From Candidatus Methanoperedens sp. (GTDB lineage Archaea > Halobacteriota > Methanosarcinia > Methanosarcinales > Methanoperedenaceae): a stretch of 52,014 nt of DNA. Both the position numbers and the translations under genes were made by a program. Under the pieces are notes generated by a model, which made no database searches, was not told the origin of the DNA, and saw nothing but the letters and a program-made list of their open reading frames with translations. The stretch spans positions 1 through 52,014 of the forward strand of contig JAUSDC010000181.1 of the NCBI GenBank assembly GCA_030650845.1, given 5' to 3'. How positions within the stretch are numbered: the first letter of the stretch is position 1; every line of letters starts with the position of its first letter. This document shows positions 27,749 through 49,844 of this stretch, piece by piece.

Positions 27749-28435
27749 ATGGGCGAGAACATGATCAAACTCATAAAACCCGCAGATATTATCACGCTTT
27801 TATGCGCGCTCCTGGGTTTCGGTTCAATAATAATGAGCGGAAGCGGGCAGAACGATGCTGCACTTGTGCTTATTCTTGCAGCTGTAATAGCTGATGCAGC
27901 TGATGGTGCAATGGCGAGATACTCAGGTTGCGGTGTACTGGGTGCAAACCTTGACTCGCTTGCTGACGTCATATCGTTTGGAGTTGCTCCTGCTGTTGCA
28001 GCTTTAATATTTCTTAATGAACTTGGAGCACTGGCCTGGGCGTCAGCGGGATTTTTTTTGGTATGCGGGATACTGCGTCTTGCCCGTTTCAACGTTGCTG
28101 GGAAGAAGGACGGTTTTGAAGGCATACCAATAACCTCGGCAGGCTTTATTGTGGCTTTATTTCTGCTTGTGAGAGAGATCGTACCATATGCTGAGTATGT
28201 TTTTATTCTCCTCTTAATCATCGTGTCCTTCCTCATGGTAAGCTCCGTAAGTTACCCGAAACTGAAGAGACCTGTAATACTTGCTCCAATGGGAATTCTG
28301 CTTGTCCTTGACATCGTGGTTTTTTATCTGGGCTACAAAGATATGGTCAAAACAGCATCATTTATACTACTTGTATTCGTTCTTGCATATTTCCTGAGTC
28401 CACTCGGGAGGAGATTTTATGACAGAGATCAATGA
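27749..28435 (+). CDS. Archaetidylserine synthase-like CDP-alcohol phosphatidyltransferase
   Basis: A 228-residue integral membrane enzyme with five to seven helices. The CDP-alcohol motif D-G-x2-A-R-x8-G-x3-D-x3-D is present as DGAMARYSGCGVLGANLDSLAD. Next to asd it should transfer archaetidyl from CDP-archaeol to serine. Two bases separate it from asd; it overlaps mptD by 17 bases at its end. Confidence 0.9.
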   Translation: MGENMIKLIKPADIITLLCALLGFGSIIMSGSGQNDAALVLILAAVIADAADGAMARYSGCGVLGANLDSLADVISFGVAPAVAALIFLNELGALAWASAGFFLVCGILRLARFNVAGKKDGFEGIPITSAGFIVALFLLVREIVPYAEYVFILLLIIVSFLMVSSVSYPKLKRPVILAPMGILLVLDIVVFYLGYKDMVKTASFILLVFVLAYFLSPLGRRFYDRDQ

Positions 28436-28775
28436 AAGGGACCGCGCAGTTTTTGAGGCAGGCATCAAGCTCGGAGCGATGTACCACCAGTTCGTGGGAA
28501 CACCCATTAGTTCAGATACAGTTGAAGGACTTGAAAGAATTATAGAGGATAGCATAGCATTACAGCCTCATGTCAGGAGTGTGAGTGTTTTGATAGACCG
28601 CGATATGGTCGAAAAAAAGTTGAATCCAAAGTTCAAATACTGTGAACTTGAGGGAAGGATGCTTCATGTTAGCCTGCAGATCCTGTATAAGAATATGATA
28701 GCACATGTGGAACTTGCTTACGATGAGATACAGGATTATCCCCTCATGAGCATAAAGAAGATAGAAGAAATGTAA
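28419..28775 (+). CDS. mptD: Dihydroneopterin aldolase MptD
   Basis: A 118-residue protein matching the archaeal MptD (DUF381) family: FEAGIKLGAMYHQFVGTPIS, then ALQPHVRSVSVLIDR and a C-terminal YDEIQDYPLMSIKKI. MptD makes 6-hydroxymethyl-dihydropterin from dihydroneopterin in tetrahydromethanopterin synthesis, so the organism has the methanogen C1 carrier. It overlaps the end of the lipid synthase gene, suggesting coupled translation. Confidence 0.92.
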   Translation: MTEINERDRAVFEAGIKLGAMYHQFVGTPISSDTVEGLERIIEDSIALQPHVRSVSVLIDRDMVEKKLNPKFKYCELEGRMLHVSLQILYKNMIAHVELAYDEIQDYPLMSIKKIEEM

Positions 28776-28842
28776 TTATTATTCATTTTCAAATATCCTT
28801 AAATATTTGAAAAGAGTAATATTGATTGAAGGAAACTAGATA

Positions 28843-29037
28843 ATGGACATTTTCGATGTATTAGCCGCTATTTCAACAAGAAAGAACTCATTTATTCATA
28901 GCGGGGTAAATGAAAACAAGGCTCTAATGAAAGCAGAACGTTATGTATCAAATGAATATCACATATCTCTGCTTGATATCAAGAGGCTTGTCGGGGAGAA
29001 CAGAACTCAGAAGGAAATCCAGCGATATCGCAGTTAA
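28843..29037 (+). CDS. Small protein of unknown function
   Basis: A 64-residue, mostly helical and charged protein (MDIFDVLAAISTRKNSFIHSG...). A purine run GAAGGAAACTAG precedes the ATG and CTTAAATATTT is a possible box A about 45 bases upstream. I recognise no family. It has no Cys and no membrane helix. Confidence 0.5.
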   Translation: MDIFDVLAAISTRKNSFIHSGVNENKALMKAERYVSNEYHISLLDIKRLVGENRTQKEIQRYRS

Positions 29038-29100
29038 ATCTGATAAAGTATTTTGACTTTTGTCATTTAAGGATTTCAATTTAGCTGTGCTTTTTTCTGA

Positions 29101-29138
29101 AAAAAAAAAGATCAGGGCAACACACCACTGCCCTGATC
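29101..29138 (-). terminator. Strong hairpin terminator of the NrfD operon
   Basis: GATCAGGGCA at 29110-29119 pairs perfectly with TGCCCTGATC at 29129-29138. Read on the minus strand the hairpin is followed by at least nine Ts. It stands about 20 bases after the nrfD stop. Confidence 0.8.
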
Positions 29139-29157
29139 AAATCCTATCCGATCAACT

Positions 29158-30402
29158 TCATCCGTGCTCTTCACCTATGAAATCAGGATGCTGCCTAAGC
29201 ACTGGCATCCTGTTAACTATCCAGCGATATACAAGAACCTCGATGATAAGAACAGCTATCACCACAATGACCTCTTTCCAGTAGAAGAGTTCTCTGTGGG
29301 GTAGTTGCCAGTTGAAAGTTATGTAAACTGTGTTGAGCCTGTTCAGGATTATTGCTATCATGGTCACTAGAGCCGAGACCTGAACAAAACCAACGTTCTT
29401 TTTCTGCACCCCATAGAAGAACATCAGAGGAGCCATAGCGAACAGCAAGAACTCAACAAGGAACAACATACCATATGGTCCTTCCAGATAACCCCAGGCA
29501 TTTTCATAAGTAATACTTGTAAGTCTCAGGCCCACATACGTGAACAGTATCAGGGCGCAGGCTTTCCCGATGCCAAGAGTGATCTCATCAAGACTTGAGA
29601 GGTATTTCTCGTCAGCCCTGTTCTTCATGAACATCTGGGTCAGTTTGCTAACAATTATCACATACACAAGCCCGGCAGCAAGCGCTGACACAAAGAACAG
29701 CCAGGGCATATACGAACTCCACCACAGCGGGTGCACTTTTCCAGGAGCAAGAAGGAACATTGCACCCAGGGCTGATTGATGAAGTGTGGAGAGCATGATG
29801 CCAGCGATCGTAAGTCCCAGTGTTGCACTGACAATAAGTTTTCGTAGACCGCGTAAGCCCAGCCACTCAAATGCAGATGATGAGAATTCAAGCGCCTGCA
29901 CCGAGAGATAAAGAGCCACATGCCATGCTACAAGGAACATGACTGAAGCAGGACCGAACGACAGGATCATAGGATAATAGATCCTCCATGGTCTTCCCAG
30001 ATCTGTCATCAGGAATACCACGGCGAACAGGTAACCCAGGAATCCCAACAGAATTGCATTTGTGACAACAGGCTGGTATTTCTTAAGCCCGAAGATGTAC
30101 ACAGCAGTCCCCATAACGAATCCGGAAGCTGAGAACGGGACACCTACGAACAGCCCGACGCCAAGAAATAGTCCCCAGGCCTGAGTATTCGAGGAATCTG
30201 TAATCTGCTCAAGACCAAAGGCAAATCGCATGAAAATAAATGCCAGCCCGATAAGGACAATGATCCCTGCAAAAATATTGAAAGGATTGATCAGCGATTT
30301 CACATAATCTTTTATGCTGAGCCTGTTAAAGAACAGGTCATTGATCCAGAATTCAACAGTCTCCGTTTTCCTCATATCTTCAATTTCTATCATATCAGTC
30401 AT
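29158..30402 (-). CDS. NrfD/PsrC family quinone-interacting membrane subunit
   Basis: A 414-residue protein with about nine or ten hydrophobic helices, for example NIFAGIIVLIGLAFIFMRFAF, FASGFV-like helices and VIVVIAVLIIEVLVYRWIV. The MTDLGRPWRIYYP and STLHQSALGAMFLLAPGKVHPLW segments are NrfD/PsrC hallmarks near the quinone site. It carries no cofactors itself and exchanges electrons with the adjacent four-cluster protein. Last gene of its operon; its ATG overlaps the ferredoxin gene stop. Confidence 0.92.
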   Translation of the reverse strand: MTDMIEIEDMRKTETVEFWINDLFFNRLSIKDYVKSLINPFNIFAGIIVLIGLAFIFMRFAFGLEQITDSSNTQAWGLFLGVGLFVGVPFSASGFVMGTAVYIFGLKKYQPVVTNAILLGFLGYLFAVVFLMTDLGRPWRIYYPMILSFGPASVMFLVAWHVALYLSVQALEFSSSAFEWLGLRGLRKLIVSATLGLTIAGIMLSTLHQSALGAMFLLAPGKVHPLWWSSYMPWLFFVSALAAGLVYVIIVSKLTQMFMKNRADEKYLSSLDEITLGIGKACALILFTYVGLRLTSITYENAWGYLEGPYGMLFLVEFLLFAMAPLMFFYGVQKKNVGFVQVSALVTMIAIILNRLNTVYITFNWQLPHRELFYWKEVIVVIAVLIIEVLVYRWIVNRMPVLRQHPDFIGEEHG

Positions 30403-31301
30403 TTCTGTACCTCCTTTTCCTCACCATGAGATTTTTTATCCTTATGGTTCATGAGATAAATCCCTCCAAATACTGCCGGCCAGGAGACCAGAGTGAGATT
30501 GACTATGGAGAGAAAGTCTTTTGTCAATTCAGGATATGCTGTTGTTCCTATATCCATCTGGAAATCAAGTTTTGAGAACGGGACTCCAGATATATACATC
30601 CATCCTGTGCCTCCGGCTTCTCGCTCGCCATAAACATGGTCTATATACTTGTCAGGTTCACCCCATATCCTTGACTTAGCAAGTTTCAGAAGTTTGTCTC
30701 TCTTTCCGAATGTGATCGCTTCCACCGGACAGGCTTCAGCACATGCTGGAACTATACCATTTGTGATCCTCTGATGGCACATGAAGCACTTCTGTATCTT
30801 TGGGTCAAAAGCGCTTGAATACTCAAATGCAGGTATGTAGAAAGGACATGCTGTCATACAGTATCTGCATCCGATGCACACCTTTTCGTTCCAGGTTACT
30901 GGTCCTTCAGGGCTCTTCTGCAGGGCTCCGACAAGGCAGGCTGAAACACATGCTGGCTCCTCACAGTGCATGCACTGCACTTTGCAGTAAACTGTTTTTC
31001 CATCTACCTCGAAGCGGTTGACCGCAGTATAGGATCCAACATCCGCAACATAAGGTCTTCTTTTTTCCTCGAACACCGATGTATCTTCAAACGAGGTCTT
31101 TGGTGTACCAAGATTGTTGGCCTTGTTGCATGCAGCCTCACATCTGCGGCATCCAATGCACCTTGTCAGGTCAGAAAGCATGCCATAGCGGTCTGGATAG
31201 CCTGTGAAACTGTGGGTTCCTGCTGCTGCAGTATTTCCCATAAGGCTCATTGCTACAATAGATCCTCCGATCTTTACAAAATCGCGTCTGCTCATTTTCA
31301 T
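30399..31301 (-). CDS. Tat-exported four-cluster ferredoxin subunit (HybA/NrfC-like) with C-terminal anchor
   Basis: A 300-residue protein opening with a twin-arginine signal (SRRDFVKIGGSIVAMSLMG), so it faces outward. Four iron-sulfur motifs follow: CIGCRRCEAAC, CMHCEEPACVSAC, CIGCRYCMTAC and CFMC...CAEACP, giving 16 Cys. The last ~45 residues contain one helix (LVSWPAVFGGIYLM), as in HybA. It should carry electrons between NrfD and the seven-haem protein. No molybdopterin catalytic subunit is present next to it. Confidence 0.93.
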   Translation of the reverse strand: MKMSRRDFVKIGGSIVAMSLMGNTAAAGTHSFTGYPDRYGMLSDLTRCIGCRRCEAACNKANNLGTPKTSFEDTSVFEEKRRPYVADVGSYTAVNRFEVDGKTVYCKVQCMHCEEPACVSACLVGALQKSPEGPVTWNEKVCIGCRYCMTACPFYIPAFEYSSAFDPKIQKCFMCHQRITNGIVPACAEACPVEAITFGKRDKLLKLAKSRIWGEPDKYIDHVYGEREAGGTGWMYISGVPFSKLDFQMDIGTTAYPELTKDFLSIVNLTLVSWPAVFGGIYLMNHKDKKSHGEEKEVQK

Positions 31302-31304
31302 GAT

Positions 31305-32126
31305 TTACCCTCCTGCTGGCTTATGGCAGCCCTGGCATGTTTCGCCGGTTCGACCTGCGTGATCAGATGGCAGCTTATTAACTCCATCAATGCCTTTAGT
31401 ATGGCACTTGATACAGAAGTCGTGATAGACTATTTTTATACTCTGTCCGCCTGGTATCCCGTCCGGATGACAGCGCAGACATTGATCCCATGTCAATGAA
31501 TGGGGTATTTCTGGGGCCGGAAATACCACGGCACTCACAGACTCCTGAGTATGGCATAGCTTGCAACCATCTGGACCTCCAAATATTTCAGTATGACAGC
31601 CCTGGCACCTTTCATGAACAGCAGCCTTGAGCCCTGGTTTTGTCATATCATCTGGATTAAATGGAGTGCCATGACAATCCTTGCAGGCATGGATCTCATC
31701 ACCGCTGTTATGGTGACAGTCCGTACATGCTATTTTGTTACTCATAATAGCATGGAAATCCGTCGCCTGGCCGTAGCTTATTGAACTATATTCAGAACTG
31801 TTCACCTCCATCCACTTTTCCGCACGGTGTGCGGTTATGGTGGCTGGGCTTCCATTGCTGTAATACTCAGGAAATGCTGGCGCTGTGACCACAGGTTCTG
31901 CAATGGTATCCGCAGTCACATTATTTCCATTAGAATTACCTGAAATAACCGCTGATGCGCCTCCGAACAACAGCCATACTACTACGATCACAGGAACGCT
32001 TTTTACAAAATCTTTATTTTTCGTATGAACAAGCATCCAGAAAGCAATGAATGCAAACAGGAATGCCACTACAAGCAAATATCCGATCCCTTTTACATAT
32101 GTCATGTATTCAACAAATGTTTCCAT
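31305..32126 (-). CDS. Seven-haem c-type cytochrome with two N-terminal membrane helices
   Basis: A 273-residue protein. Two hydrophobic helices (YLLVVAFLFAFIAFWMLV and VPVIVVVWLLFGGASAVI) come first, then an exported domain with seven CxxCH sites: CTDCH, CKDCH, CQGCH, CKLCH, CLRCH, CIKCH and CQGCH. Extra His residues between them can serve as distal ligands. Three bases before the ferredoxin gene, it is probably the terminal carrier of this complex, passing electrons to or from extracellular cytochromes. Confidence 0.92.
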   Translation of the reverse strand: METFVEYMTYVKGIGYLLVVAFLFAFIAFWMLVHTKNKDFVKSVPVIVVVWLLFGGASAVISGNSNGNNVTADTIAEPVVTAPAFPEYYSNGSPATITAHRAEKWMEVNSSEYSSISYGQATDFHAIMSNKIACTDCHHNSGDEIHACKDCHGTPFNPDDMTKPGLKAAVHERCQGCHTEIFGGPDGCKLCHTQESVSAVVFPAPEIPHSLTWDQCLRCHPDGIPGGQSIKIVYHDFCIKCHTKGIDGVNKLPSDHAGRTGETCQGCHKPAGG

Positions 32127-32198
32127 AATATCCTCCGTATTTCACTGTATTTTTCCCTATCCTTTCCATTATTTTTTGATCTTCGAACCTTTCCATTC

Positions 32199-33641
32199 TC
32201 ATGGTACTCGTATTAACACCTCACAACATTTGTCACCGTGAGTTAACAAATTCCTGACCTCTAACTGCGCCTGTGTGCCGAAAGCGTGACTGATAGCCCC
32301 TTTGAAAGTTTCTCGTATTGTCTGGCACACATATTTATCGACAGTGCTCCCTTCAGCAACGATATTGCATTTACTGACAAGGTACACGAGATTGTTCTTG
32401 TCCATTTTCCACTCGCTTTCCCTGTGAAGCCTGGAATCTATTGCCCCAAAAGCGCTCTGGAATGTTGCCAGGTTCCATTTCGTGATATTGTTCTCCTTTT
32501 CATATTCCTGCATCAGCGACTTTCCCATCCTTCTGCCCAGGAACGTTAGCGACATAGGAATGTCAGGCATGTTTTTTAGTCCTTTGAGGAAAGCCATGAA
32601 CATTATTAATTCCTGGTCAACTCTACTGTTGCTGATCTTCAGGTTGCTGACGATCTCGTTTATTTTTATTCCAACGTCAGGTCTGTGGGTCAGGACGATC
32701 ATATTGGCTGTTGACTTTGCGTCATATAAATGACCGTTCGCTTCCAGGAGCGCAACAAGGCTTTTCTTTAATTTGTCGATCACTTCTATGTTCCTGTAAT
32801 TATGGAACAGAATTACTGTCTCCCTGTCGATCTCAACCCTGTCCACTACCCTTGATGTCTCATAAACTTCTTTTATCAGCGGAAGCATCTCTTTTAAGGG
32901 TATTTCCCCGATGGGTTTTTTTGCAAGTGTTTCGATGGTTATCTCACCCATTGGTATTTTTCCTGCCAGTAAGTCCTCCAGATAATTCCTGTGTACAGTG
33001 ACCATGCTGTAATTGCTCAAAATATGCCCATCTATGACAGTCTTCCAGAACGAAGGACGGCTCTTTATTGCCTGTATCACTTCATCCATTGCCCCAAAAA
33101 AATTATCCAGGCTATTCATTGCATCTTTTTTATTGGATCGTGAAAGTTCGATCTTCAGACTGTCACTGAAATTGCTGACCGACCTTATCCCGAGTGCGCA
33201 GGGTTCATTTGAATTTTTCACCAGGTACTGACAGATAAGGCATGCAATGAATTTGATCTTTTGAGGGGCTCCTTTCAGTTCAATAAGTACATCAGAAGGA
33301 GATGAATCACTGTCAGACTTTATTGAAAGGTCAATGTTCCATTCAAGTTCATTGAACCTTTGATGCAGCTGTTTCTCCAGTCCCCTTATTGAATCTATCT
33401 GCGATGGATCTATTATCTCGTCCAGAACATTGTTCGGGATAAGTCTGCCATCTATTTCTGCCAGCATCCATTTGAATAAGGAACTGTCAATAGAAGAGGA
33501 ATTCTGGAGGGAACTATATTTTCCTGCCCTGTCAATTATCTCTCTTACAGCAGCGCTGAAATTGCCATTGTTCTTTTCGACATACGGCTGCATCTTATCG
33601 ATGCAGTCGTTGTCAAGAGATATGTGTCTGGTTACGATCAT
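32199..33641 (-). CDS. RHH/V4R-like predicted regulator, paralogue 1
   Basis: A 480-residue protein, one of four paralogues here. The start (MIVTRHISLDNDCIDKMQPYVEKNNGNFSAAVREII) has the strand-helix-helix pattern of ribbon-helix-helix DNA-binding domains. The core holds a strongly conserved block (NYSMVTVHRNYLEDLL; MIVLTHRPDVGIKINEI). The last ~120 residues (LGRRMGKSLMQEYEKEN ... VDKYVCQTIRETFKGAISHAFG ... GDKCCEVLI) resemble a V4R small-molecule domain, with three Cys kept in all copies. GATAGGAGGG before the ATG supports the start. It lies between a small membrane protein and the seven-haem gene, so I infer a redox- or ligand-sensing regulator of this operon. Confidence 0.65.
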   Translation of the reverse strand: MIVTRHISLDNDCIDKMQPYVEKNNGNFSAAVREIIDRAGKYSSLQNSSSIDSSLFKWMLAEIDGRLIPNNVLDEIIDPSQIDSIRGLEKQLHQRFNELEWNIDLSIKSDSDSSPSDVLIELKGAPQKIKFIACLICQYLVKNSNEPCALGIRSVSNFSDSLKIELSRSNKKDAMNSLDNFFGAMDEVIQAIKSRPSFWKTVIDGHILSNYSMVTVHRNYLEDLLAGKIPMGEITIETLAKKPIGEIPLKEMLPLIKEVYETSRVVDRVEIDRETVILFHNYRNIEVIDKLKKSLVALLEANGHLYDAKSTANMIVLTHRPDVGIKINEIVSNLKISNSRVDQELIMFMAFLKGLKNMPDIPMSLTFLGRRMGKSLMQEYEKENNITKWNLATFQSAFGAIDSRLHRESEWKMDKNNLVYLVSKCNIVAEGSTVDKYVCQTIRETFKGAISHAFGTQAQLEVRNLLTHGDKCCEVLIRVP

Positions 33642-33661
33642 ATTATTCCCTCCTATCCCTT

Positions 33662-33952
33662 TTATTTCTGGAGCTCTTCATACAGGAGCTCTTTTTCTTT
33701 GATAAGCGCCGCTTCCCTGCGTGCAAGCGCTTTCATGGCTTCCGTAGGTTTTACAGACACTACTATCCTGTTCTTCCTGTCCTGCATGTATTCTCTCAAT
33801 GAGAACAGCATGTATACAGCAAAGGTCGCCGGAATGAGGAACAACCACCCTATCACGAAAGCCTGAAAGGTTCCCATGGGTAGGAGATAGGCTGCTCCCA
33901 TCACTGTGGCGCCGACTACAATTGTTGCGACATACTTAACCCAAGTTTTCAT
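33662..33952 (-). CDS. Small two-helix membrane protein, paralogue s1
   Basis: A 96-residue protein: two helices (YVATIVVGATVMGAAYLL and FVIGWLFLIPATFAVYMLF) and a charged C-terminal helix (VSVKPTEAMKALARREAALIKEKELLYEEL) likely in the cytoplasm as a coiled coil. The motif G-W-L-F-x-I-P-x-x-x-x-V-Y recurs in the other copies in this window. It is the first gene of the NrfD operon and is followed after 20 bases by an RHH/V4R-like gene. No known family is recognised. Confidence 0.75.
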   Translation of the reverse strand: MKTWVKYVATIVVGATVMGAAYLLPMGTFQAFVIGWLFLIPATFAVYMLFSLREYMQDRKNRIVVSVKPTEAMKALARREAALIKEKELLYEELQK

Positions 33953-33973
33953 ATACTATCACCATACTTGATT

Positions 33974-34075
33974 ATCCAATGCCAATCTCAAAACCATATT
34001 TGTCATTAAATTAGCATTAAAATCATGAAATGACATAAAATGGCAAAAAAATCGTTTTTATGACAATACTTGGCA
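33974..34075. promoter_or_regulatory. Helically phased TGRCA/TGYCA array upstream of s1
   Basis: Half-sites occur at 33980 (TGCCA), 34001 (TGTCA), 34031 (TGACA), 34041 (TGGCA), 34061 (TGACA) and 34071 (TGGCA). All starts fall within one base of a 10-base grid, so they lie on roughly the same DNA face. Read on the minus strand, the proximal site is TGGCATTGGAT, a degenerate form of the palindrome found before s2 and s3. Confidence 0.55.
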
Positions 34076-34135
34076 TCAAGAGCACAAAGTTACTTTTAAC
34101 AAGCTGCAACACCAGCAGATTTGACAAGTACAGTA

Positions 34136-35578
34136 TTATGGTATTCTTATGGACACTTCACAGAAACTATCTCCGCGCGACATCAGATTATTTATCTTCA
34201 ATTCCGCCTTATTCCCAAATGCCTGGCTCAATACTCCTTTGAAAGCCTCCCTGATTGTATGGCAGATATAACGGTCAAAGGTATTCCCGGTTTCTGAAAT
34301 GCTGCATTGCCTGATTGTATATATTAGATCTCTGTTTTCTAATTTCCATTCACTCACCCTGTGGAGCCTTGAGTCAATGGTTTCCATGGCCTTCTTGAAG
34401 GATTCAAGATCCCAGGTCTTAATGTTGTTCTCTTTTTCGTACTCCTTTAACAGTGACCTGCCGATCCTTCTTCCAAGAGTTGTGAGGGAAATGGGAATGT
34501 CAGGGATCTCGCGAAGGCCTTCAAGAAAAGCTATGAACATCATCAATTCCTGATCCACCGTGCTGTTGCTTGATCTTAGATGGTCGACTATTTCATTCAT
34601 TTTCATCCCGACATCAGGTCTGTGGCTTAGCATTATCATATTGGTGGTAGTCTTTGCATCAAATAGATGACCATTGGATTCAAGGAGCATGACAAGGCCA
34701 TTTTTTAATCTCTCAACAGCATTCTTATTTCTAAAATAATGGGACACGATTATCATTTCATTTTCGATGTTCACTCTATCCACAACCCTGGCGGCCTCAT
34801 ATACCTCCTTTATGAGAATGAGCAGCTCTTTTAATGGGATTTCTTGTACCGGTTTTTTTGCCATTGTCTCTATCATTATTTCTCCATGGGGGATCTTATC
34901 TGTAAAAATATCTTCGAGATAATTCCTGTGGACAGTGACCATATTGTAATTGCTTGCCACGTGCCTGTGGACAAGGTTTTTCCAGAAATCAGGACGGTTC
35001 TTGATAACGTTCATTATTTCATTCAAATTTCCAAAAAAGGTGTTGAGACTAATCTGGGAATCTTTTTTATTTGATCTGAAAAACCCGATTTTCATACATG
35101 TATTAATGTTGACTACGAATTTTATCTCAAGTGGCGCATATTCCAGTGAGTTCTTGACAAGATACTGTGACAGTATACATGCCAGGAATTTTGTTTTTTG
35201 AGGGGCACCTCTCATTTCGATCAATATCTCTGATGGAAAAGTTACAGAATCATATTTGAAGACTATGTCAATATCCCACTCAAGCTCTTCTATCCTCTGC
35301 TTTACGAACTTTTCAAATTTTTCCATCGAAGTAATAAGCCCGGGATCAAGTATTTCATCAAGTACCTTATCCGGGAGGAAAATATCCTCTGCTTCTTTAA
35401 GCAACCAGTCAAGCAAAACGGTATCAATAGCACACGAATTCGTGCGCAAGCTGTACTTTCCAGCCTGTCCTAAAATCTCCTTGAATGAAGTGCATAGATT
35501 ACCGCCATTTTTTTCCAGATAGGGTTTCATTTTCTCTATATGGTCATCATCCAGTGATATGTGCCTCAATACTGGCAA
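34136..35578 (-). CDS. RHH/V4R-like predicted regulator, paralogue 2
   Basis: A 480-residue protein from a TTG at 35578 (MPVLRHISLDDDHIEKMKPYL), preceded by GGGGTG. An upstream TTG would add eight residues, but this start gives the same length and N-terminus as the paralogues. It has the RHH-like start, the VTVHRNYLEDIF and MIMLSHRPDVGMKMNEI core, and the V4R-like end (LGRRIGRSLLKEYEKEN, YICHTIREAFKGVL, GDSFCEVSI). It stands alone between the two respiratory operons without a small membrane gene directly before it. A TGACAATGGTA element lies about 60 bases upstream. Confidence 0.65.
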   Translation of the reverse strand: MPVLRHISLDDDHIEKMKPYLEKNGGNLCTSFKEILGQAGKYSLRTNSCAIDTVLLDWLLKEAEDIFLPDKVLDEILDPGLITSMEKFEKFVKQRIEELEWDIDIVFKYDSVTFPSEILIEMRGAPQKTKFLACILSQYLVKNSLEYAPLEIKFVVNINTCMKIGFFRSNKKDSQISLNTFFGNLNEIMNVIKNRPDFWKNLVHRHVASNYNMVTVHRNYLEDIFTDKIPHGEIMIETMAKKPVQEIPLKELLILIKEVYEAARVVDRVNIENEMIIVSHYFRNKNAVERLKNGLVMLLESNGHLFDAKTTTNMIMLSHRPDVGMKMNEIVDHLRSSNSTVDQELMMFIAFLEGLREIPDIPISLTTLGRRIGRSLLKEYEKENNIKTWDLESFKKAMETIDSRLHRVSEWKLENRDLIYTIRQCSISETGNTFDRYICHTIREAFKGVLSQAFGNKAELKINNLMSRGDSFCEVSIRIP

Positions 35579-35641
35579 TTTAACACCCCGCTTTTTGTTC
35601 AATTCAAAACAACATGAACACTATTATGTTTGTTTATGCTA

Positions 35642-35652
35642 TGACAATGGTA
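35642..35652. promoter_or_regulatory. TGACA-A-TGGTA operator-like site upstream of paralogue 2
   Basis: This matches the TGACAWTGTCA palindrome at eight or nine of eleven positions. Further TGACA (35695), TGGCA (35714) and TGCCA (35744) half-sites follow in the same spacer. Confidence 0.45.
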
Positions 35653-35804
35653 AAAATATATTTGATATCAATTGTTCCCGTATTCCAGCATTTATGACAT
35701 AATATTACTGTGATGGCAAAAATCTGAACAATAAACTTGAATTTGCCATCGATGGATCATTCTGAAAAAAAAAGTCTGATCAGAGTATATTGATTCAGAG
35801 TATA

Positions 35805-36617
35805 TCATAGTATATATGTAGTTACTGCATCAACCAATACCTTATACGAGATCCAAAGCATCCAGACCGTAATAGCCAGGAAGATAACTGTGAACACTAA
35901 CTTTGCCAATATTGTAACAGGTCCTGTGTTATTCCCATGGTTTGTTTCTGTTCCTTCTTCAGGTTCCCGATCTTTCATCACAGCTTCATATTCTAAGGCA
36001 TGCTCATGGTGCATCTCTTGTGCTGATATATTCCCTGTGATCCAGGAAATATTCGGGAATTTCCCGATGTGTTCATCATAGAAATGACCTATGAACACTG
36101 CAAGAGATGCAAGGACTGCTTCCCAGGTGTGGAACAGGTTAGCTATCTGGACTACACCGATCGGAAAATACTGCATGGCTTCGAATGGTTTCCACATCAA
36201 TATTCCGGTGAAGCCCATGACTACAGCTCCAAACCCTGCTCCGAAATATTCGAACTTCTGTTTCCAGGTATATCTTCCGAATTTGGGATGCTGATCCGTT
36301 AGCCTCAGGTAATACCGCATCTGCTGCATGAAGTCTTTGATGTCCTGCAGATTGAACAATACATCAAATCGCGGCTTCTCCAGGATATGGAACACCACAT
36401 GGTAAACAGATACACCTATCATCAGCAGACCTGAATATTGGTGAATAAGCGTCCTGTTATCAAAACCGCCCACAGAATCTATCATCCATTTCGCCCACCA
36501 CTCATCAGGGAACTTCAATGGAAAACCAGTGTATGCAAGCAGTATAAAGGTCGTAAAGAAAATTATATGCTGTACACGCTGGTTGACCGTGAATCGTCTG
36601 AATTTTAATTCACTCAT
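35805..36617 (-). CDS. Membrane cytochrome b (formate dehydrogenase gamma-like)
   Basis: A 270-residue protein with five hydrophobic helices: VQHIIFFTTFILLAYTGFPL, YSGLLMIGVSVYHVVFHIL, FGAGFGAVVMGFTGILMW, LFHTWEAVLASLAVFIGHFY and VFTVIFLAITVWMLW. Paired His residues in helices 1, 2 and 4 can bind two b haems, as in FdnI/HydC-type subunits that oxidise or reduce quinones. It overlaps the seven-haem gene by 8 bases. Together they make a minimal quinone:cytochrome c module without a catalytic subunit. Confidence 0.88.
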   Translation of the reverse strand: MSELKFRRFTVNQRVQHIIFFTTFILLAYTGFPLKFPDEWWAKWMIDSVGGFDNRTLIHQYSGLLMIGVSVYHVVFHILEKPRFDVLFNLQDIKDFMQQMRYYLRLTDQHPKFGRYTWKQKFEYFGAGFGAVVMGFTGILMWKPFEAMQYFPIGVVQIANLFHTWEAVLASLAVFIGHFYDEHIGKFPNISWITGNISAQEMHHEHALEYEAVMKDREPEEGTETNHGNNTGPVTILAKLVFTVIFLAITVWMLWISYKVLVDAVTTYIL

Positions 36618-37506
36618 GATTTTTCCTCCCTTTTAAGTCAAGTCCTGAAGTAATGCCCAGGAAAATAAGCCCGAATGTAAATACCAGTTCAAACAGTATC
36701 ATAACTATGTAGAAGTATGTTACAAGGGATTTGACATCTATGAATAACAGGTTAACTGACTGCTCTTCATGGATCTTGCCGCCATAAACATAGACATTGT
36801 TAGCGCCTGGATGACAATTTGTTTTCCCGCAGGTTGCGGGCAGGTTAGCCGGATTTATTGCAGATTCAGGATCATCTTGGGGTTTTGTATCGTGGTTCTC
36901 ATGACAATCAGAGCATGTTGCAAGTACTTTTCCACCACCCAGGTAAGACTTGTAATGATACGACTTTTTATAGGTGTCAAATCGGTCTGTTTTTATTCCA
37001 TAGTACCAGGCTTGCATTTTCGTCTGGTTTTCATGACAGCCTCCGCACATCAATGGTATATTTTCAAGATGTGTTGGAGAGGTCTGTTCTGTTGAAGGTA
37101 TGATATTATGGACTCCATGGCAGTCGATGCACGATGCTGCTTCAGGTCTTCCCTCCAGGACTTTTTTCCAGTGTATGCTTTTTTTGTATTTCTCGGTTGC
37201 CTGCATATGGCATCTGGAACAGATATCTGTCAGATTAGTCCGTGAAGGCGAGCCTGTAAAATCCTTAGACATCACGTCTATAGATACTACGCTGCCGTTG
37301 ATCTTTATGTCTCCGCCATGGCAGTCAGTACACGAAATATTATTATTAAAGTGTACACTTTTTTCAAACTCGTTTACCTGTTTTGTATGGCAGTGAGAAC
37401 AGGATGCATCCACCACCCTGTCCTGCGCTAATGCAACCCCGGTCAAGAACATTCCAGCAAGGAAAATCAAAGCAATTATTTTAATTCTCCCTGCCCTCAA
37501 ATACAT
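36610..37506 (-). CDS. Seven-haem c-type cytochrome with signal peptide and C-terminal helix
   Basis: A 298-residue protein: signal peptide (IKIIALIFLAGMFLTGVALA), then six CxxCH sites (CSHCH, CTDCH, CSRCH, CIDCH, CGGCH, CSDCH) and one CGKTNCH, a C-x4-CH site, then a membrane helix (FYIVMILFELVFTFGLIFLG) and basic tail. The layout resembles NrfH/NapC-neighbour type multihaem donors and proteins of quinol:cytochrome c modules in anaerobic methane oxidisers. It starts five bases after paralogue 3 of the RHH/V4R-like family. Confidence 0.92.
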   Translation of the reverse strand: MYLRAGRIKIIALIFLAGMFLTGVALAQDRVVDASCSHCHTKQVNEFEKSVHFNNNISCTDCHGGDIKINGSVVSIDVMSKDFTGSPSRTNLTDICSRCHMQATEKYKKSIHWKKVLEGRPEAASCIDCHGVHNIIPSTEQTSPTHLENIPLMCGGCHENQTKMQAWYYGIKTDRFDTYKKSYHYKSYLGGGKVLATCSDCHENHDTKPQDDPESAINPANLPATCGKTNCHPGANNVYVYGGKIHEEQSVNLLFIDVKSLVTYFYIVMILFELVFTFGLIFLGITSGLDLKGRKNHE

Positions 37507-37511
37507 TTCTT

Positions 37512-38954
37512 CTATGGTATTCGTATCATCACCTCACACAAATTATCACCTTGAATAACGGATTTATTGACAATGAATTCTGCTTTACTTCCAAATGCAT
37601 AATGCAGCGCTCCTTTGAAGGTCTCTCTTATTGTATGACATATATATTTATCAAACGAATTCCCTTCTGTGACAAGGCTGCATTTCTTGATAGTATATAG
37701 CAGATCGTTTCCCTCTAAATTCCATTCACTCTCCCTGTGAAGCCGGGAATCGATAATAGTAATTGCTTTGCTGAAGTTATCCAGGTCCCATTTCTTGATG
37801 CTGTTCTCACGTTCGTATTCTTGCATCAGGTAAATGCCTGTCCTCCTGCCAAGTGAGGTCAGGGTCAGGGGAATATCCGGGATATCCCTTATTCCCTTTA
37901 GATATGCCATGAACACAAGCAATTCCTTGTCAAACGTGCTTTTACTCGTCTTAAGATTAGATACTATCTCGTTTATTTTCGTACCCACATCAGGTCTGTG
38001 CCTGAGCACTATCATATTAGCGACAGTTGCAGCGTCGTATAAATGACCGCTGGATTCCAGAAGCAGTACAAGACTATTTTTCAGCTTTTCAATTGCCTCT
38101 TTTGTCCTGAAATTGTGGAACAATGCTATGGTGTCTTTGTCTATTTCCACCCTGTCTGCGATCCTTGATGTTTCGTAAACCTCTTTTATCAGATAGAGCA
38201 TCTCTGGTAATGGTATATCTCGTACCGGCTTTTTTGCCAGATTCTCTATCATTATCTCTCCCAGGGGTACCCTGTCTGAAAGGATATCTTCAAAATAGTT
38301 CCTGTGGACAGTGACCATATTGTAGTTGCTGATCAAATGCCTGTCGATCAAAGCCTTCCAGAAAGCAGGGCGGCTCTTTATCGTTTTCATTACTTCATCC
38401 CGCTCTCCGAAAAAAGTACACAGGCTCTTTTTCGCATCCTTAATACTTGATCTTAACAGTTCGACCTTTACGCACTCATTAGATCCTGTTACCTTCTTTA
38501 TCTCAAGTGGCGCCTGGATAAGTGAGTTTTTCACCAGGTACTGGCAGATAATACAAGCCACGAATTTTATTCTTTGAGAGTGACCTTTTATTTCGACCAA
38601 TACATCAGAAGGGAATGAGTCGCGGTCATATTTCAGAACAATATCTGTACCCCATTCGAGTTCAGAGAACCTGCGTTTCAGGTATTCTTCCAGTTCTCCC
38701 ATAGAATTGATCAGCGTCGGGTTTATTGTTTCGTCCAGTATTTCATCAGGAATAAGAATGCCATCTATCTCCGAAAGTATCCAGTTGAGTAAAGATATAT
38801 CTATGGCAGATGAATTCGAACGATAGCTGTATTTTTCTGCCAGATTTATCATTTCTCTCAGCGCAGCTCCGAAGTTGCCATTTTGTTTATCGATATATTG
38901 TTTCATTTTTTCAATATGGTCATCGTCAAGAGAGATGTGTCTGGTAATATTCAT
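37512..38954 (-). CDS. RHH/V4R-like predicted regulator, paralogue 3
   Basis: A 480-residue protein (MNITRHISLDDDHIEKMKQYIDKQNGNF...). The RHH-like N-terminus, the SNYNMVTVHRNYFEDIL and MIVLRHRPDVGTKINEI core and the C-terminal V4R-like part (YICHTIRETFKGALHYAFG, GDNLCEVMI) are all intact. It stands between the small membrane gene s2 and the second seven-haem gene, repeating the order of the NrfD operon. This repeated order is the best evidence that the protein serves these operons. Confidence 0.65.
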   Translation of the reverse strand: MNITRHISLDDDHIEKMKQYIDKQNGNFGAALREMINLAEKYSYRSNSSAIDISLLNWILSEIDGILIPDEILDETINPTLINSMGELEEYLKRRFSELEWGTDIVLKYDRDSFPSDVLVEIKGHSQRIKFVACIICQYLVKNSLIQAPLEIKKVTGSNECVKVELLRSSIKDAKKSLCTFFGERDEVMKTIKSRPAFWKALIDRHLISNYNMVTVHRNYFEDILSDRVPLGEIMIENLAKKPVRDIPLPEMLYLIKEVYETSRIADRVEIDKDTIALFHNFRTKEAIEKLKNSLVLLLESSGHLYDAATVANMIVLRHRPDVGTKINEIVSNLKTSKSTFDKELLVFMAYLKGIRDIPDIPLTLTSLGRRTGIYLMQEYERENSIKKWDLDNFSKAITIIDSRLHRESEWNLEGNDLLYTIKKCSLVTEGNSFDKYICHTIRETFKGALHYAFGSKAEFIVNKSVIQGDNLCEVMIRIP

Positions 38955-39022
38955 TGCAGATCAACCCCGCATATTTCATATTCCTTTTTCTCTCTATGAC
39001 GATCCATCGATATCCACCGCTC

Positions 39023-39205
39023 TTATGTTCTTGCAACCTTCTGCACGAAGTATACAAAGAATGCCACCGGGATCAGGAATAATCCTGCAGCAAAGATGCC
39101 AAAGAAGGTTTCAGTCGGTAGGCTATACGCAGCTGCCAGAAAAACAAGGGCAGCAGCAACCACTCCCAGATATTTTATCTGAGTTTCTAATGTCCGGTTC
39201 TCCAT
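39023..39205 (-). CDS. Small two-helix membrane protein, paralogue s2 (short form)
   Basis: A 60-residue protein with two helices (YLGVVAAALVFLAAAYSL and IFAAGLFLIPVAFFVYFV), ending QKVART. It lacks the charged C-terminal helix of s1 and s3. The GLFLIPVAFFVY segment is the shared motif. GGGTGATATAAT precedes the ATG, close to the leader of s3. It heads the cytochrome b operon. Confidence 0.7.
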   Translation of the reverse strand: MENRTLETQIKYLGVVAAALVFLAAAYSLPTETFFGIFAAGLFLIPVAFFVYFVQKVART

Positions 39206-39234
39206 ATTATATCACCCTGAACTAACATATAAAA

Positions 39235-39245
39235 TGACAATGTTA
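39235..39245. promoter_or_regulatory. TGACA-A-TGTTA operator-like palindrome before s2
   Basis: Eleven bases, one mismatch from the perfect palindrome before s3. It ends 29 bases before the s2 ATG on the minus strand. Confidence 0.6.
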
Positions 39246-39359
39246 TAGACGTGTTTGAGAACATCCTGTGACTGATCTGCCTTTTTTCGTCACGATGAAC
39301 TATATTGTGGAGCGTGTGCGACAAAATAAAAAAATAATGTACGTTTTCACCTTATTTTT

Positions 39360-39411
39360 CCATGATTATCTGATTCATGGTCTATTCTTCCATGATTATT
39401 CGAATTCATGG
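39360..39411. repeat. Two tandem CCATGA-N-TCATGG palindromes
   Basis: CCATGATTATCTGATTCATGG at 39360-39380 and a near copy at 39390-39411, 30 bases apart. Each has perfect six-base arms. They lie in the middle of the divergent spacer. Confidence 0.55.
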
Positions 39412-39556
39412 TTTTAAAGAGCCAAATACGCTTTAATTATGGACGCAAATCCTGATACATTTTTAAATATCTGTATTATTGGAGTTCATACGCCATTATT
39501 TCGCTTCTGTGGCGTTACGTGCTGATTTGTGACCTTAGCATTACCAAATACACTTT

Positions 39557-39567
39557 TGACATTGTCA
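39557..39567. promoter_or_regulatory. TGACA-T-TGTCA perfect palindrome before s3
   Basis: A perfect 11-base palindrome ending 32 bases before the s3 ATG. The leader that follows, GAGGTGATATAAT, is nearly that of s2. Confidence 0.65.
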
Positions 39568-39599
39568 TCAGATAGATTAGATTGACGAGGTGATATAAT

Positions 39600-39905
39600 A
39601 TGGACACACGGTTAAAATATATTGTGGCAATAACTGCGGCAATGGGTTTTATGATGGCGGCATATTTTTATCCCGCAGAAACTTTCATCACCTTTACCGT
39701 AGGGTGGCTGTTCTTCATACCGGCTGCATTCGTTGTATATATGACCTGGAGTTTCCTTGAATACATGAAGGAACGGAAACACATGATCACTGTGGGTATC
39801 AAACCTACCGAAGCTATGAGAGTTCTGGCACGCAGGGAAGCAGAATTGAAGAAAGAAAAGGAAATGATGTACGAAGAGCTGGGGAGAGGGATACAGCCCA
39901 GGTAG
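39600..39905 (+). CDS. Small two-helix membrane protein, paralogue s3
   Basis: A 101-residue protein, close to s1 over its whole length: two helices (YIVAITAAMGFMMAAYFY and FTVGWLFFIPAAFVVYMTW) and a charged helix (GIKPTEAMRVLARREAELKKEKEMMYEEL). GAGGTGAT precedes the ATG. Unlike s1 and s2 it is transcribed towards its neighbouring RHH/V4R-like gene, with 21 bases between their ends. Confidence 0.75.
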   Translation: MDTRLKYIVAITAAMGFMMAAYFYPAETFITFTVGWLFFIPAAFVVYMTWSFLEYMKERKHMITVGIKPTEAMRVLARREAELKKEKEMMYEELGRGIQPR

Positions 39906-39926
39906 GTCCCTTTCCTTTTTTTGCTC

Positions 39927-41366
39927 TCATGGTAGAGTTATTACGACCTGGCAAAATTCGTCCCCATGTGAGATTAATTTCTTGATCTCTAATTTTGCTG
40001 TATTTCCGAATGCATGGTTCAATGCGCCTTTGAAGGTTTCCCTGGAAGTATGGCAGACGCAAGTATCTAATTTATTTCCTTCATTGGCGATATTGCATCT
40101 TTTCACCGTATAGAGCAGAATGTTCCCGTCAAGTTTCCATTCGCTTTCGGTGTGGAGTTTGGAATTGATGATCTCAAATGCCTTTTTGAAGCTTGCAAGG
40201 TCCCATTTCCTGATGACATTCTCCTTTTCGTATTCCTGCATCAGGGTTTTACCCATTCTTCTTCCCAGGGAGGTAAGGGACAGAGGGATGTCCGGGATGT
40301 TCTTTAGCCCTTTAAGGAAAGCCATGAACATCATCAATTCCTGATCCACTCTACTGTTGCTTGTTTTCAGATTATCCACGACCTCATTGATCTTCAATCC
40401 CACATCTGGCCTGTGAGTCAGCACGATCATGTTGGCTGTGGATTTTGCATCATATAAATGACCGTTGGTCTCCAACAATGCAACAAGGATCTTTTTTAGT
40501 TTTTCTATAGCATCCTTGTTTCTATAATTATGGAATAAAATAACATTTTCGTTATCGATCTCCACCCGGTCTACGACCCTTGCGGTCTCATACACTTCTT
40601 TTATTAGAGGAAGCATCTGCGCCAATGGAATTTCCTGGATGGGTTTTTTTGCCAGGTTCTCTATTGTTATTTCCCCGAGCGGTATGTTGTTCGCCAGAAG
40701 TTCTTCAAAATAATTCCTGTGGACAGTGATCATGTTGTAATTACTTAAATGATGTCTGCAAATTATGGCTTTCCAGAAGGTTGGATAGCCTTTTATGATC
40801 TTTATTACTTCATCCATCCCTCCGAAAAATGTGGTAAGGCTGTTGAGCGCATCATTTTTATTAGATCGGGAAAGTTCGATCTTCATTCCTTCATTAAAAT
40901 TTAAGACAGAATTTATCTCAAGAGGAGATCGTTCAAGCGAATTTTTGACGAGATATTGGGACATGATGCAGGAGATGAATTTTACTTTCTGGTTATCACC
41001 CTTTATTTCCATCAAAATATCAGAAGGAAATGAATCATTATCACATTTTAATGAAATATCTGTATTCCATCCAAGGTCCTGGAATCTGAAATTAACGAAC
41101 CCTTCGAGCTTTCTCACTGAATTTATCAGCATTGGATCGATCATTTCGTTCATCACGTCGTCCGGAATGAAGGTGCATACCTCAGTGAGTATCCATTTAA
41201 AAATAGAGTTATCTAATGCAGAGGAGTTAAATGGCAGCCCGGATTTTCCTGCCTTATCTATTATTTCCCTCATCGCAGCGCTGAAATTACCCTGATGTCG
41301 TTCGACATAAGGTCTCATCTTTTCAACGCAGTCCTTATCAAGGGAAATATGCTTAGTAACGATCAT
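39927..41366 (-). CDS. RHH/V4R-like predicted regulator, paralogue 4
   Basis: A 479-residue protein (MIVTKHISLDKDCVEKMRPYVERHQGNFSAAMREII). The RHH-like start, VTVHRNYFEELL and MIVLTHRPDVGLKINEV core, and V4R-like C-terminus (CVCHTSRETFKGALNHAFG, GDEFCQVVI) are conserved. It is closest to paralogue 1 by eye. No cytochrome gene follows; the gene converges with s3 and diverges from s4. Confidence 0.65.
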   Translation of the reverse strand: MIVTKHISLDKDCVEKMRPYVERHQGNFSAAMREIIDKAGKSGLPFNSSALDNSIFKWILTEVCTFIPDDVMNEMIDPMLINSVRKLEGFVNFRFQDLGWNTDISLKCDNDSFPSDILMEIKGDNQKVKFISCIMSQYLVKNSLERSPLEINSVLNFNEGMKIELSRSNKNDALNSLTTFFGGMDEVIKIIKGYPTFWKAIICRHHLSNYNMITVHRNYFEELLANNIPLGEITIENLAKKPIQEIPLAQMLPLIKEVYETARVVDRVEIDNENVILFHNYRNKDAIEKLKKILVALLETNGHLYDAKSTANMIVLTHRPDVGLKINEVVDNLKTSNSRVDQELMMFMAFLKGLKNIPDIPLSLTSLGRRMGKTLMQEYEKENVIRKWDLASFKKAFEIINSKLHTESEWKLDGNILLYTVKRCNIANEGNKLDTCVCHTSRETFKGALNHAFGNTAKLEIKKLISHGDEFCQVVITLP

Positions 41367-41494
41367 TTCTTTTAAACCTGAAGTTAAATCTATACCCGTT
41401 ATCTTTACCCGTTTTCCCCATTTTTACAGATTTAGGTTTTTATCCTACCATATATTCATCGACTTTATCACCATATATAGTTTGCTGTTTGATT

Positions 41495-41504
41495 TGCCAA
41501 GGCA
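41495..41504. promoter_or_regulatory. TGCC-AA-GGCA palindrome between paralogue 4 and s4
   Basis: A perfect palindrome of TGCCA-type half-sites in the divergent spacer, about 130 bases from the paralogue 4 start and 90 from s4. A direct repeat of GATACATTTTA lies at about 41535-41557. Functional link to the other operators is uncertain. Confidence 0.35.
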
Positions 41505-41594
41505 TAGCCTTTAAAATAATCATTTTGCGAAAAGATACATTTTAGATACATTTTATATAGTCCCTGCAGTATAGAACTTGTGGGGCGACCTGTA

Positions 41595-41849
41595 ATGATG
41601 AATAGAACTATGAAAGTAGCTGTCTTTTTAAGTATCATTATTTTATTATTTGTTTCGATCTCATGGACAGTGATGATCCTGATACTTGGATTATTGTTTA
41701 TTCCACCGTTAGCTGTTATTATTTATGCGTTCCTGCATGGTACGCCAGTTATTCGAAGGGAGATAGAGGCTGTTTTGTCTTCAGGAAAAGATTTCTTCCT
41801 GATCTCAGTTTCAAAAAAATATATTACGCTAGAACCGCAGTTTAGATAA
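41595..41849 (+). CDS. Small two-helix membrane protein, divergent paralogue s4
   Basis: An 84-residue protein from the ATG at 41595 (MMNRTMKVAVFLS); a GTG at 41580 could add five residues. Two helices (VAVFLSIIILLFVSI and MILILGLLFIPPLAVIIYAFL) and a polar C-terminal part. The GLLFIPPLAVIIY segment matches the G-x-L-F-x-I-P motif of s1-s3, but the rest differs, so kinship is tentative. Transcribed away from paralogue 4. Confidence 0.5.
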   Translation: MMNRTMKVAVFLSIIILLFVSISWTVMILILGLLFIPPLAVIIYAFLHGTPVIRREIEAVLSSGKDFFLISVSKKYITLEPQFR

Positions 41850-41880
41850 TCTATTTATCATGAAGGTCTGGAAATAATAA

Positions 41881-42450
41881 ATGAAATCCATCGCAATAGT
41901 CAGAGCAACAGATATCTTGAAAATCAGGTCTACACTGCTTGAAATGAACCGGGCGGGCATAGAATTTGATGGGGGACCTAAAGAGATCAATCCCGCTTCA
42001 GTTGAAAAAGTGTTATCCCGACCAACAGAGAAGAATTATGAATTTTGCTCCCTTGTCCCCATCATGCAGGATTACGATTTTTCCCGGGGAATAATAAAAG
42101 CTCTCACACTTTATTCTGAAGTTCTTCTAATTGATGAATCCTCTGAGCTTTTTAGCAGGTTCTCCAGGCTGATACAGGTATTACCTGACCTTGATCTTCC
42201 AGACCAGCCATACAAAGAAATTAAAAAACAAATTACTGCCCTGCAGGAGAAAACAACCAGTGTATATCTGGGCGTGTTCGTTAACAAAAAAGTACAATTA
42301 CATACGATCTCTGGAAAGGTAAATGATGGTATCCTCAGGAATGCTGATCCAATTGGTGTTTTTTTTGAGCCGCAGGATGGTTCATCCCCTGTTTTTTTTA
42401 CGTGGCACGATATCAAAAAGATCGTGATACCCAGGGAAGAAAAAGGTTAG
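41881..42450 (+). CDS. Conserved-looking protein of unknown function
   Basis: A 189-residue soluble alpha-beta protein (MKSIAIVRATDILKIRSTLLEMNRAG...). It begins like an Rossmann-type strand and ends with a compact beta region (VFFTWHDIKKIVIPREEKG). I recognise no family and no catalytic motif. It starts 31 bases after s4 on the same strand, so the two may be co-transcribed, and its end overlaps the cbiE stop by four bases. Confidence 0.6.
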   Translation: MKSIAIVRATDILKIRSTLLEMNRAGIEFDGGPKEINPASVEKVLSRPTEKNYEFCSLVPIMQDYDFSRGIIKALTLYSEVLLIDESSELFSRFSRLIQVLPDLDLPDQPYKEIKKQITALQEKTTSVYLGVFVNKKVQLHTISGKVNDGILRNADPIGVFFEPQDGSSPVFFTWHDIKKIVIPREEKG

Positions 42451-43031
42451 GAAACGCCAGCGATCATAAGGCAATAAAGCTCGGATCTCGCAACAGGTGG
42501 TCGCTCTGTCGTGCCTTCAAAGATACGTTCATCAGGATAGGCAAGATTCTCAAATACCCATATCCGTCTTGAAATACCACGTTGTTCCAGCATGGCAGCA
42601 ATTTCATTCACCCCGAACGTGGCGTCGGGAAGGAGAAAAACGTTTTTTCCAATTTCCAGCTCTTCTATTAACCTGGTTTTTACTGCCTCCACGTTCCTTG
42701 AATGGGCTGTTATGACTGCCACAATCTCAATATCCAGACGTAGATAGGAACACGCAAGTTGCAGTGAGGATATGCCGGGGATGACAATATCTCCTGGTTT
42801 TGCGAATTTTCCAAGCCCTGAAAGCATGGGATCACCAGTCGATAGTACGACTGCATCCCCGGGAAGGGATTTCAGCGTGTAATCCTCAATTTCGTGAACT
42901 TCGCATTTAATATGCTCACCTGCAAGTTCTATCGCCCTTCTTGAGCCAAAAATAATTCTTGCGCCCTCAATGGCAGACGCTGCTTCCGGGGTCAAGAGAT
43001 TGGGCCCCGCGCCCACGCCTACTATTTTCAT
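42447..43031 (-). CDS. cbiE: Cobalt-precorrin-7 C5-methyltransferase CbiE
   Basis: A 194-residue SAM enzyme of the tetrapyrrole methylase fold in anaerobic cobalamin synthesis. MKIVGVGAGPNLLTPEA is the family start and VVLSTGDPMLSGLGKF the second motif, followed by PGISSLQLAC. The ATG at 43031 follows AGAGGT and comes two bases after the cbiD stop; an upstream TTG would overlap it. The CbiT decarboxylase domain is not fused and not adjacent. Confidence 0.92.
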   Translation of the reverse strand: MKIVGVGAGPNLLTPEAASAIEGARIIFGSRRAIELAGEHIKCEVHEIEDYTLKSLPGDAVVLSTGDPMLSGLGKFAKPGDIVIPGISSLQLACSYLRLDIEIVAVITAHSRNVEAVKTRLIEELEIGKNVFLLPDATFGVNEIAAMLEQRGISRRIWVFENLAYPDERIFEGTTERPPVARSELYCLMIAGVS

Positions 43032-43033
43032 GA

Positions 43034-44071: not shown

Positions 44072-44108
44072 TTCAATCTAGTTTACAGTAGCTTTTTATT
44101 ATCAAATC

Positions 44109-48494: not shown

Positions 48495-48507
48495 AATATG
48501 TGCATTA

Positions 48508-48531
48508 TGTACAGTAAATAAATTATGTACA
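48508..48531. promoter_or_regulatory. Paired TGTACA sites before the AbrB-type gene
   Basis: TGTACA at 48508-48513 and at 48526-48531, 18 bases apart, exactly twice the spacing before the nuclease gene. The second ends 18 bases before the ATG. Confidence 0.5.
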
Positions 48532-48549
48532 TGAAATTACTAAGAAAGC

Positions 48550-48732: not shown

Positions 48733-48752
48733 ACTTTTCCCAATAGTGTCAT

Positions 48753-49841: not shown

Positions 49842-49844
49842 AAC

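Follow-up and report, generated by a model that had tools for sequence, protein, structure and literature searches.

INTRODUCTION

What decides which oxidoreductase a methane-oxidising archaeon makes for a given electron acceptor? Methanoperedens species respire with nitrate, Fe(III) or Mn(IV), and the oxidoreductases that they express differ between these acceptors (PMC7327174); our literature searches found no regulator for this acceptor-dependent switch. The question is raised by a 52,014-nt stretch of DNA from Candidatus Methanoperedens sp. (contig JAUSDC010000181.1; the whole stretch is called the window below). Positions 29158–41849 of the window, the span studied here, hold two sets of genes for membrane electron transfer, whose products probably carry electrons outwards from the cell membrane, each set headed by a gene for a small membrane protein (s) and a gene for a larger protein with a predicted DNA-binding N-terminus (P). 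The initial annotation had proposed that s and P form a dedicated signalling pair that matches respiratory complexes to an electron acceptor, quinone redox state or gas. The pairing is borne out by co-occurrence in the genus, by a promoter signature shared genome-wide and by two natural s-P fusions, and the linkage to electron-transfer genes is conserved across the genus. From these sequence comparisons, P is probably an archaeal one-component regulator that has s as its membrane partner and controls its own operons through TGNCA boxes. The core signature shared by the s1, s2, s3 and P2 promoters, the phased TGNCA array at s1 and the two fusions are new.

RESULTS AND DISCUSSION

Conservation of the s-P module

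The open reading frame (ORF) listing gives two gene orders on the minus strand, s1-P1-MHC1-FeS-NrfD from 33952 down to 29158 and s2-P3-MHC2-cytochrome b from 39205 down to 35805 (MHC, multihaem cytochrome; FeS, 4Fe-4S subunit), and the genes of each set would be cotranscribed. All genes of these two operons, which had been described as sharing one gene order, lie where they had been placed, and the arrangement recurs across the genus and is not due to chance. P1 (32199–33641) follows s1 (33662–33952), and P3 (37512–38954) follows s2 (39023–39205). The same span also holds P2 (34136–35602, minus strand, TTG start assumed), P4 (39927–41366, minus strand) and s3 (39600–39905, plus strand), which is convergent with P4. 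P2, P3 and P4 are full-length paralogues with 57, 60 and 67% identity to P1, and s3 is a full-length family member with 55% identity to s1. In contrast, s2 is a short form of 60 residues, which consists of the two-helix core only and lacks the conserved C-terminal tail. Two more large and two more small paralogues had been listed; P2, P4 and s3 were upheld, but s4 (41580–41849, plus strand) lies outside the s family, because the s profile search missed it and its score reaches 6 bits, with a heavy bias. In the entire 3.4-Mb genome, s1, s2 and s3 are the only matches to a profile built from 30 s proteins.

The whole-genome searches with patterns and profiles covered, for the most part, the genus or the order. 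P homologues occur in 50/60 relatives, and ~80 P loci were mapped, many of them broken at the contig ends of metagenome-assembled genomes. In 45/95 cases the gene directly downstream of a close P gene is a multihaem gene; s lies directly upstream of P in 42 of those 45, and within 450 bp of 78 of the 95. The homologues are not scattered without a cytochrome link, an outcome that would have refuted the initial annotation. Only 3 other multihaem genes are present in the same 1.06 Mb of loci. Read from the cytochromes, P is upstream of 45/46 MHC1/MHC2 genes, a figure that is biased because the loci were picked by P, whereas no such bias affects the count taken from P to MHC or the promoter scan of whole genomes described below. 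The order s-P-MHC1-FeS-NrfD was found in ~26 genomes and s-P-MHC2-cytochrome b in ~17. P proteins of 24/26 MHC1 modules fall into one clade (support 0.95), and the partners of MHC2 are split among clades. Within the genus, s is encoded in those genomes that have close P genes and is missing from the two that have only distant P (G025 and G029); s is present in 30/34 genomes of the family and in 0/86 other genomes sampled in the order.

Because s and P share an operon with cytochrome genes, and small membrane subunits are common in such complexes, s could be a small accessory oxidoreductase subunit and P an assembly or maturation factor; the relatives of the MetOD1 domain, to which P is compared below, include ATC hydrolase, making an enzymatic role possible (PMC5847659). 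This explanation is improbable, since s and P are also found on their own at sites with no cytochrome nearby, an RHH-like N-terminus is present in P, and s and P are common to two oxidoreductases of different build. We therefore favour a regulatory role, and one that is wider than these operons, because many P genes and some s genes have no cytochrome beside them and the pair is hence not exclusively a cytochrome regulator. Conversely, the same genome has 3 other NrfD genes (contigs C60, C70 and C176), and neither an s gene, by the s profile search, nor a P match was found on those contigs, so the pair marks only some complexes.

Remote P homologues, with 26–38% identity, are present in other families; no P was found in viral contigs. 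At five loci of one other family (L091, L094, L095, L110 and L111) the remote P gene is placed tail-to-tail with a cluster of Rnf, methano7heme cytochrome and cytochrome b genes, and contact with electron-transfer genes may therefore predate the partnership with s. Genes for a universal stress protein and an antiporter also lie near the remote P gene at these five loci. P relatives devoid of the V4R domain occur as multiple, partly tandem copies in complete genomes of a third family of the order (G090, G094, G105 and G106). In a sister genus, giant multihaem ORFs (3–5828 and 15702–20000), which contain 36 and 21 haem motifs, stand on either side of the module at locus L087. P genes broken by stop codons are present on two contigs of one Methanoperedens genome (G009:C211 and G009:C97) and may reflect the decay of extra modules or assembly errors.

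Core promoter signature and phased TGNCA array

The promoters of s1, s2, s3 and P2 have in common a 31-bp core, TCAAATANTNTTTTANNATTGNCATTNNATA, whose TGNCA box is located ~35 bp before the s start codon. Its sites in the window are at 33973–34003 for the s1 operon (minus strand, 3 mismatches), 35635–35665 for P2 (minus strand, 2 mismatches), 39228–39258 for the s2-P3-MHC2-cytochrome b operon (minus strand, 4 mismatches) and 39544–39574 for s3 (plus strand, 4 mismatches), and the 52-kb window contains no further site at up to 6 mismatches. With up to 3 mismatches allowed, 62 matches were found in 31 whole genomes, compared with 0 for the reversed control, and 61 of the 62 precede s or P genes by coordinates. 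The off-locus matches that were checked precede orphan or extra s genes, except for one 3-mismatch match inside an ORF. Such an exclusive signature is what an autoregulated system would be expected to show, but it does not say which protein binds. The position of the core box, between a TATA-like TTTTA element and the probable start site, suggests repression.

Further boxes of the form TGYCA/TGRCA are abundant upstream of s and P genes. Within 42 s-promoter regions of cytochrome operons, 182 sites are spaced at 10–11, 20–21, 30–31, 40–41, 50–52 and 60 bp, and a period of 10.15 bp fits them best, with a score of 0.76, whereas none of 300 random placements scored above 0.22. These regions share a common descent, but the repetition is internal to each of them. 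In the window, the operator-like array upstream of s1 occupies 33980–34126 and has seven boxes, which start at 33980, 34001, 34031, 34041, 34061, 34071 and 34122 (offsets 0, 21, 51, 61, 81, 91 and 142) and are all in phase. Scanning 1.29 Mb of loci gave 24 phased arrays, all of them before s1, and 0 with the reversed motif. Three consecutive 10-bp WTGNCAW boxes gave 0 matches genome-wide because the window array skips positions, and a search for pairs at 10–11 and 20–21 bp revealed no second dense phased array in the same genome. RHH/CopG repressors such as MetJ, omega and ParG have a beta-alpha-alpha N-terminus and use arrays of short boxes that suit cooperative dimers. Unlike the boxes of these repressors, those found here are 5 bp long at a 10.15-bp phase, and the N-terminus of P is weakly RHH-like by profile.

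That the array is found together with P does not show which protein binds it, and the boxes and the core signature might instead serve a different regulator or chromatin proteins, with P and s as mere regulon members that have another task. TG/CA steps repeated in phase might make it easier for DNA to bend or for histone-like proteins to bind, and the same genome also encodes MsvR, an archaeal regulator. We judge this explanation unlikely, because the whole pentamer with AT-rich flanks is enriched while the reversed pentamer gives no arrays, because the signature is confined to s/P genes in the 31 genomes, as autoregulation would predict, and because the published MsvR motif, TTCG-N7-9-CGAA, is different (PMC3729527). 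Binding of the boxes by P itself is the reading that we retain.

P4 has no core signature. A different conserved element of stand-alone P genes, of the GGGGAAAACGGG type, is found upstream of it (41391–41420, minus strand). This element, often repeated, is present upstream of 23 P genes, and 26/39 of its matches in 1.06 Mb are just upstream of a P start. Because P4 and other stand-alone P genes carry this different element, the regulon logic is incomplete.

Domains of P and the possible signal

By sequence comparison, P and s are two protein families that have no significant full-length match in Pfam or NCBIfam. The N-terminus of P is RHH-like, its middle part is uncharacterised, and its C-terminal domain has a predicted V4R/H-NOX/Bet3 fold. 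The RHH_1 profile matches 6/19 diverse N-terminal segments of P (best E 6e-4), NikR is among the weak PDB matches of this part (E 0.21), and the AlphaFold model of the P monomer has two helices and no strand there. An RHH-like segment is thus seen weakly but repeatedly, and the other outcome that would have refuted the initial annotation, structural predictions with no DNA-binding domain in P, did not arise. Extra V4R repeats in the middle segments were considered and rejected, because hhalign finds nothing.

With the P model, Foldseek returned Bet3/TRAPPC3 (6.7e-4, prob 1.00), H-NOX (0.036) and the V4R domain of PoxR (0.044, both prob 0.99). Judging from alignment length and secondary structure, the matched part would be the C-terminal domain, and by this characteristic fold P appears to belong to the V4R/MetOD1/H-NOX superfamily, model confidence being moderate. 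Profile scores for this domain are low: the NCBIfam MsvR model gives P an E of 0.06 at best (13 bits versus a cut-off of 220) over the C-terminal part only, and a remote P homologue matches MetOD1 (PF18546) at E 0.0095, under the curated cut-off. C439 is present in 114/114 P proteins, and C425 and C473 in 113/114, remote members included. In a profile alignment of P with 31 MsvR proteins, these three cysteines fall on MsvR cysteines, and GD470 falls on the MsvR GD.

MsvR (NF053755) is an archaeal one-component regulator with a C-terminal V4R domain and a DNA-binding N-terminus, a build that is predicted for P as well, and the C439–C473 spacing of P, 34, equals that of C206–C240 in MsvR of M. 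acetivorans (MaMsvR). However, MsvR has a helix-turn-helix N-terminus, a length of ~240 residues and no known membrane partner, whereas P has an RHH-like N-terminus and ~300 extra residues and lacks a cysteine matching C232 of MaMsvR. The V4R cysteines of MaMsvR affect redox-dependent DNA binding, and its C206A variant bound DNA under non-reducing conditions, which the native protein does not (PMC3729527). Three conserved cysteines are also found in MetOD1, a methanogen-regulator domain related to V4R and H-NOX (PMC5847659); this domain is either linked to REC domains of response regulators or free-standing, and no REC domain was detected in P.

The C-terminal domain of P, with its three conserved cysteines, would sense a redox state or a small ligand, much as MsvR does. 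The domain is of the same fold class as the H-NOX gas sensors and the phenol sensor PoxR, and it is conceivable, though the less favoured option, that the pair is a regulator whose V4R-type domain senses nitric oxide, an aromatic compound or a lipid or quinone and not thiol redox, a variant of our explanation that differs in the signal only. Against this variant, nothing else in the domain is as conserved as the three cysteines, which are in register with MsvR, and no haem-ligand pattern was identified.

The s protein and the s-P fusions

The s protein has two transmembrane helices followed by a charged C-terminal helix, which by the positive-inside rule is probably cytoplasmic. A fold search with s1 gave no match. 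That the tail is a degenerate RHH segment pairing with P was rejected, because hhalign gave no alignment and shuffled controls score higher.

Two natural s-P fusions were found, at L116 7325–8509 in genome G004 and at L250 5758–7047 in genome G001. They join an s-like hairpin directly to the RHH and middle region of P, so that the RHH domain adjoins the membrane. Only in these two proteins is a transmembrane segment joined to a predicted DNA-binding domain; the window encodes s and P in separate genes, whose products would make contact as separate proteins. No other observation speaks as strongly as the fusions for joint action of s and P and for an ability of s to bring P to the membrane.

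A proposed membrane-coupled regulator of oxidoreductase operons

The following mechanism would accommodate these observations. The N-terminal RHH-like domain of P would bind DNA at TGNCA boxes, one of which has a fixed place in the core promoters of the s operons and of some P operons, after TTTTA and before the probable start site. Upstream of s1, several more boxes are phased on one DNA face, an arrangement that suggests cooperative occupancy. The s hairpin would anchor or gate P and couple it to the membrane, either to the quinone pool or to respiratory activity. Through occupation and release of these boxes, P would regulate both the s/P genes themselves and the cotranscribed genes for menaquinone:cytochrome c oxidoreductases. 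Taken as a whole, the proposal that a membrane-coupled RHH-V4R pair, restricted in this form to Methanoperedenaceae, senses a redox state or ligand at the membrane and switches whole oxidoreductase operons through helically phased TGNCA arrays has in our estimate about an even chance of being right.

Several observations weigh against the mechanism outlined here. Both fusion proteins are without the V4R domain. The AlphaFold model of P is moderate (predicted local distance difference test, pLDDT, 71; predicted template modelling score, pTM, 0.38), the hhalign match between P and MsvR is weak (E 0.007, low probability), and the full-length Pfam V4R and RHH matches of P are below cut-off, so that the RHH/V4R-like label given initially to P finds its support in cysteine register, profile alignment and predicted fold but not in Pfam. 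P paralogues exist far from cytochrome genes and without s. Moreover, the core signature is absent from P4 and other stand-alone P genes, and the promoter element could belong to another regulator.

The set of genes had been thought to match no described system. This holds for the regulatory part, as our literature searches found no regulator described with these complexes, but not for the electron-transfer parts, which are published (PMC7327174), nor for the C-terminal domain of P, which falls within the V4R/MetOD1/H-NOX superfamily (PMC5847659, PMC3729527). The NrfD-FeS-multihaem and cytochrome b-multihaem units of the window are of the menaquinone:cytochrome c oxidoreductase kind reported for Methanoperedenaceae by Leu et al. 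2020 (PMC7327174); the word regulator is absent from the main text of that paper, whose text on these clusters does not describe s, P or the promoter elements. If the proposal is correct, no dedicated regulator of extracellular electron transfer would have been known in methane-oxidising archaea before P and s, and the pair may be the missing switch for metal- and nitrate-dependent respiration of Methanoperedens. With a candidate regulator, a candidate membrane partner, promoter boxes and target operons now named, the proposal is open to experiments that use purified protein and short DNA fragments, and the promoter signature lets the regulon be read from Methanoperedens genomes.

Electron-transfer subunits and neighbouring genes

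In the first operon, the NrfD-type quinone subunit (29158–30402, minus strand; Pfam NrfD 3.5e-16) is HmcC-like, and the 4Fe-4S subunit (30399–31301, minus strand), with an N-terminus of the twin-arginine translocation (Tat) type, is HmcB-like. Both match their counterparts in Hmc of sulfate reducers over the full length, with NCBIfam scores below the curated cut-offs (386 bits versus 550 for HmcC; 390.9 bits, just under 420, for HmcB). MHC1 (31305–32126, minus strand) combines an HmcD-like N-terminal membrane segment with a c3 part like the end of HmcA, and has 7 haems compared with 16 in hexadecahaem HmcA. Unlike Hmc of sulfate reducers, the window unit is archaeal and has s and P upstream. 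In the second operon, MHC2 (36610–37506, minus strand) is NapC/NirT-like, and the cytochrome b (35805–36617, minus strand) is of the formate dehydrogenase gamma/Ni-hydrogenase type (Pfam Ni_hydr_CYTB 3.9e-19). Both multihaem proteins had been called seven-haem cytochromes, which is correct for MHC1 with its 7 CxxCH motifs, whereas MHC2 has 6 CxxCH and one CxxxxCH.

Rfam gave no match in 28000–43000 of the window. Beside P4, and divergent from it, the small membrane protein s4 is conserved together with DUF356, and the order s4-DUF356-tetrapyrrole methylase-CbiD-MutL (41580–45821) is kept in several genomes. At the right end of the window (48000–52000), the GC content drops to 0.28–0.31, compared with 0.38–0.48 elsewhere.

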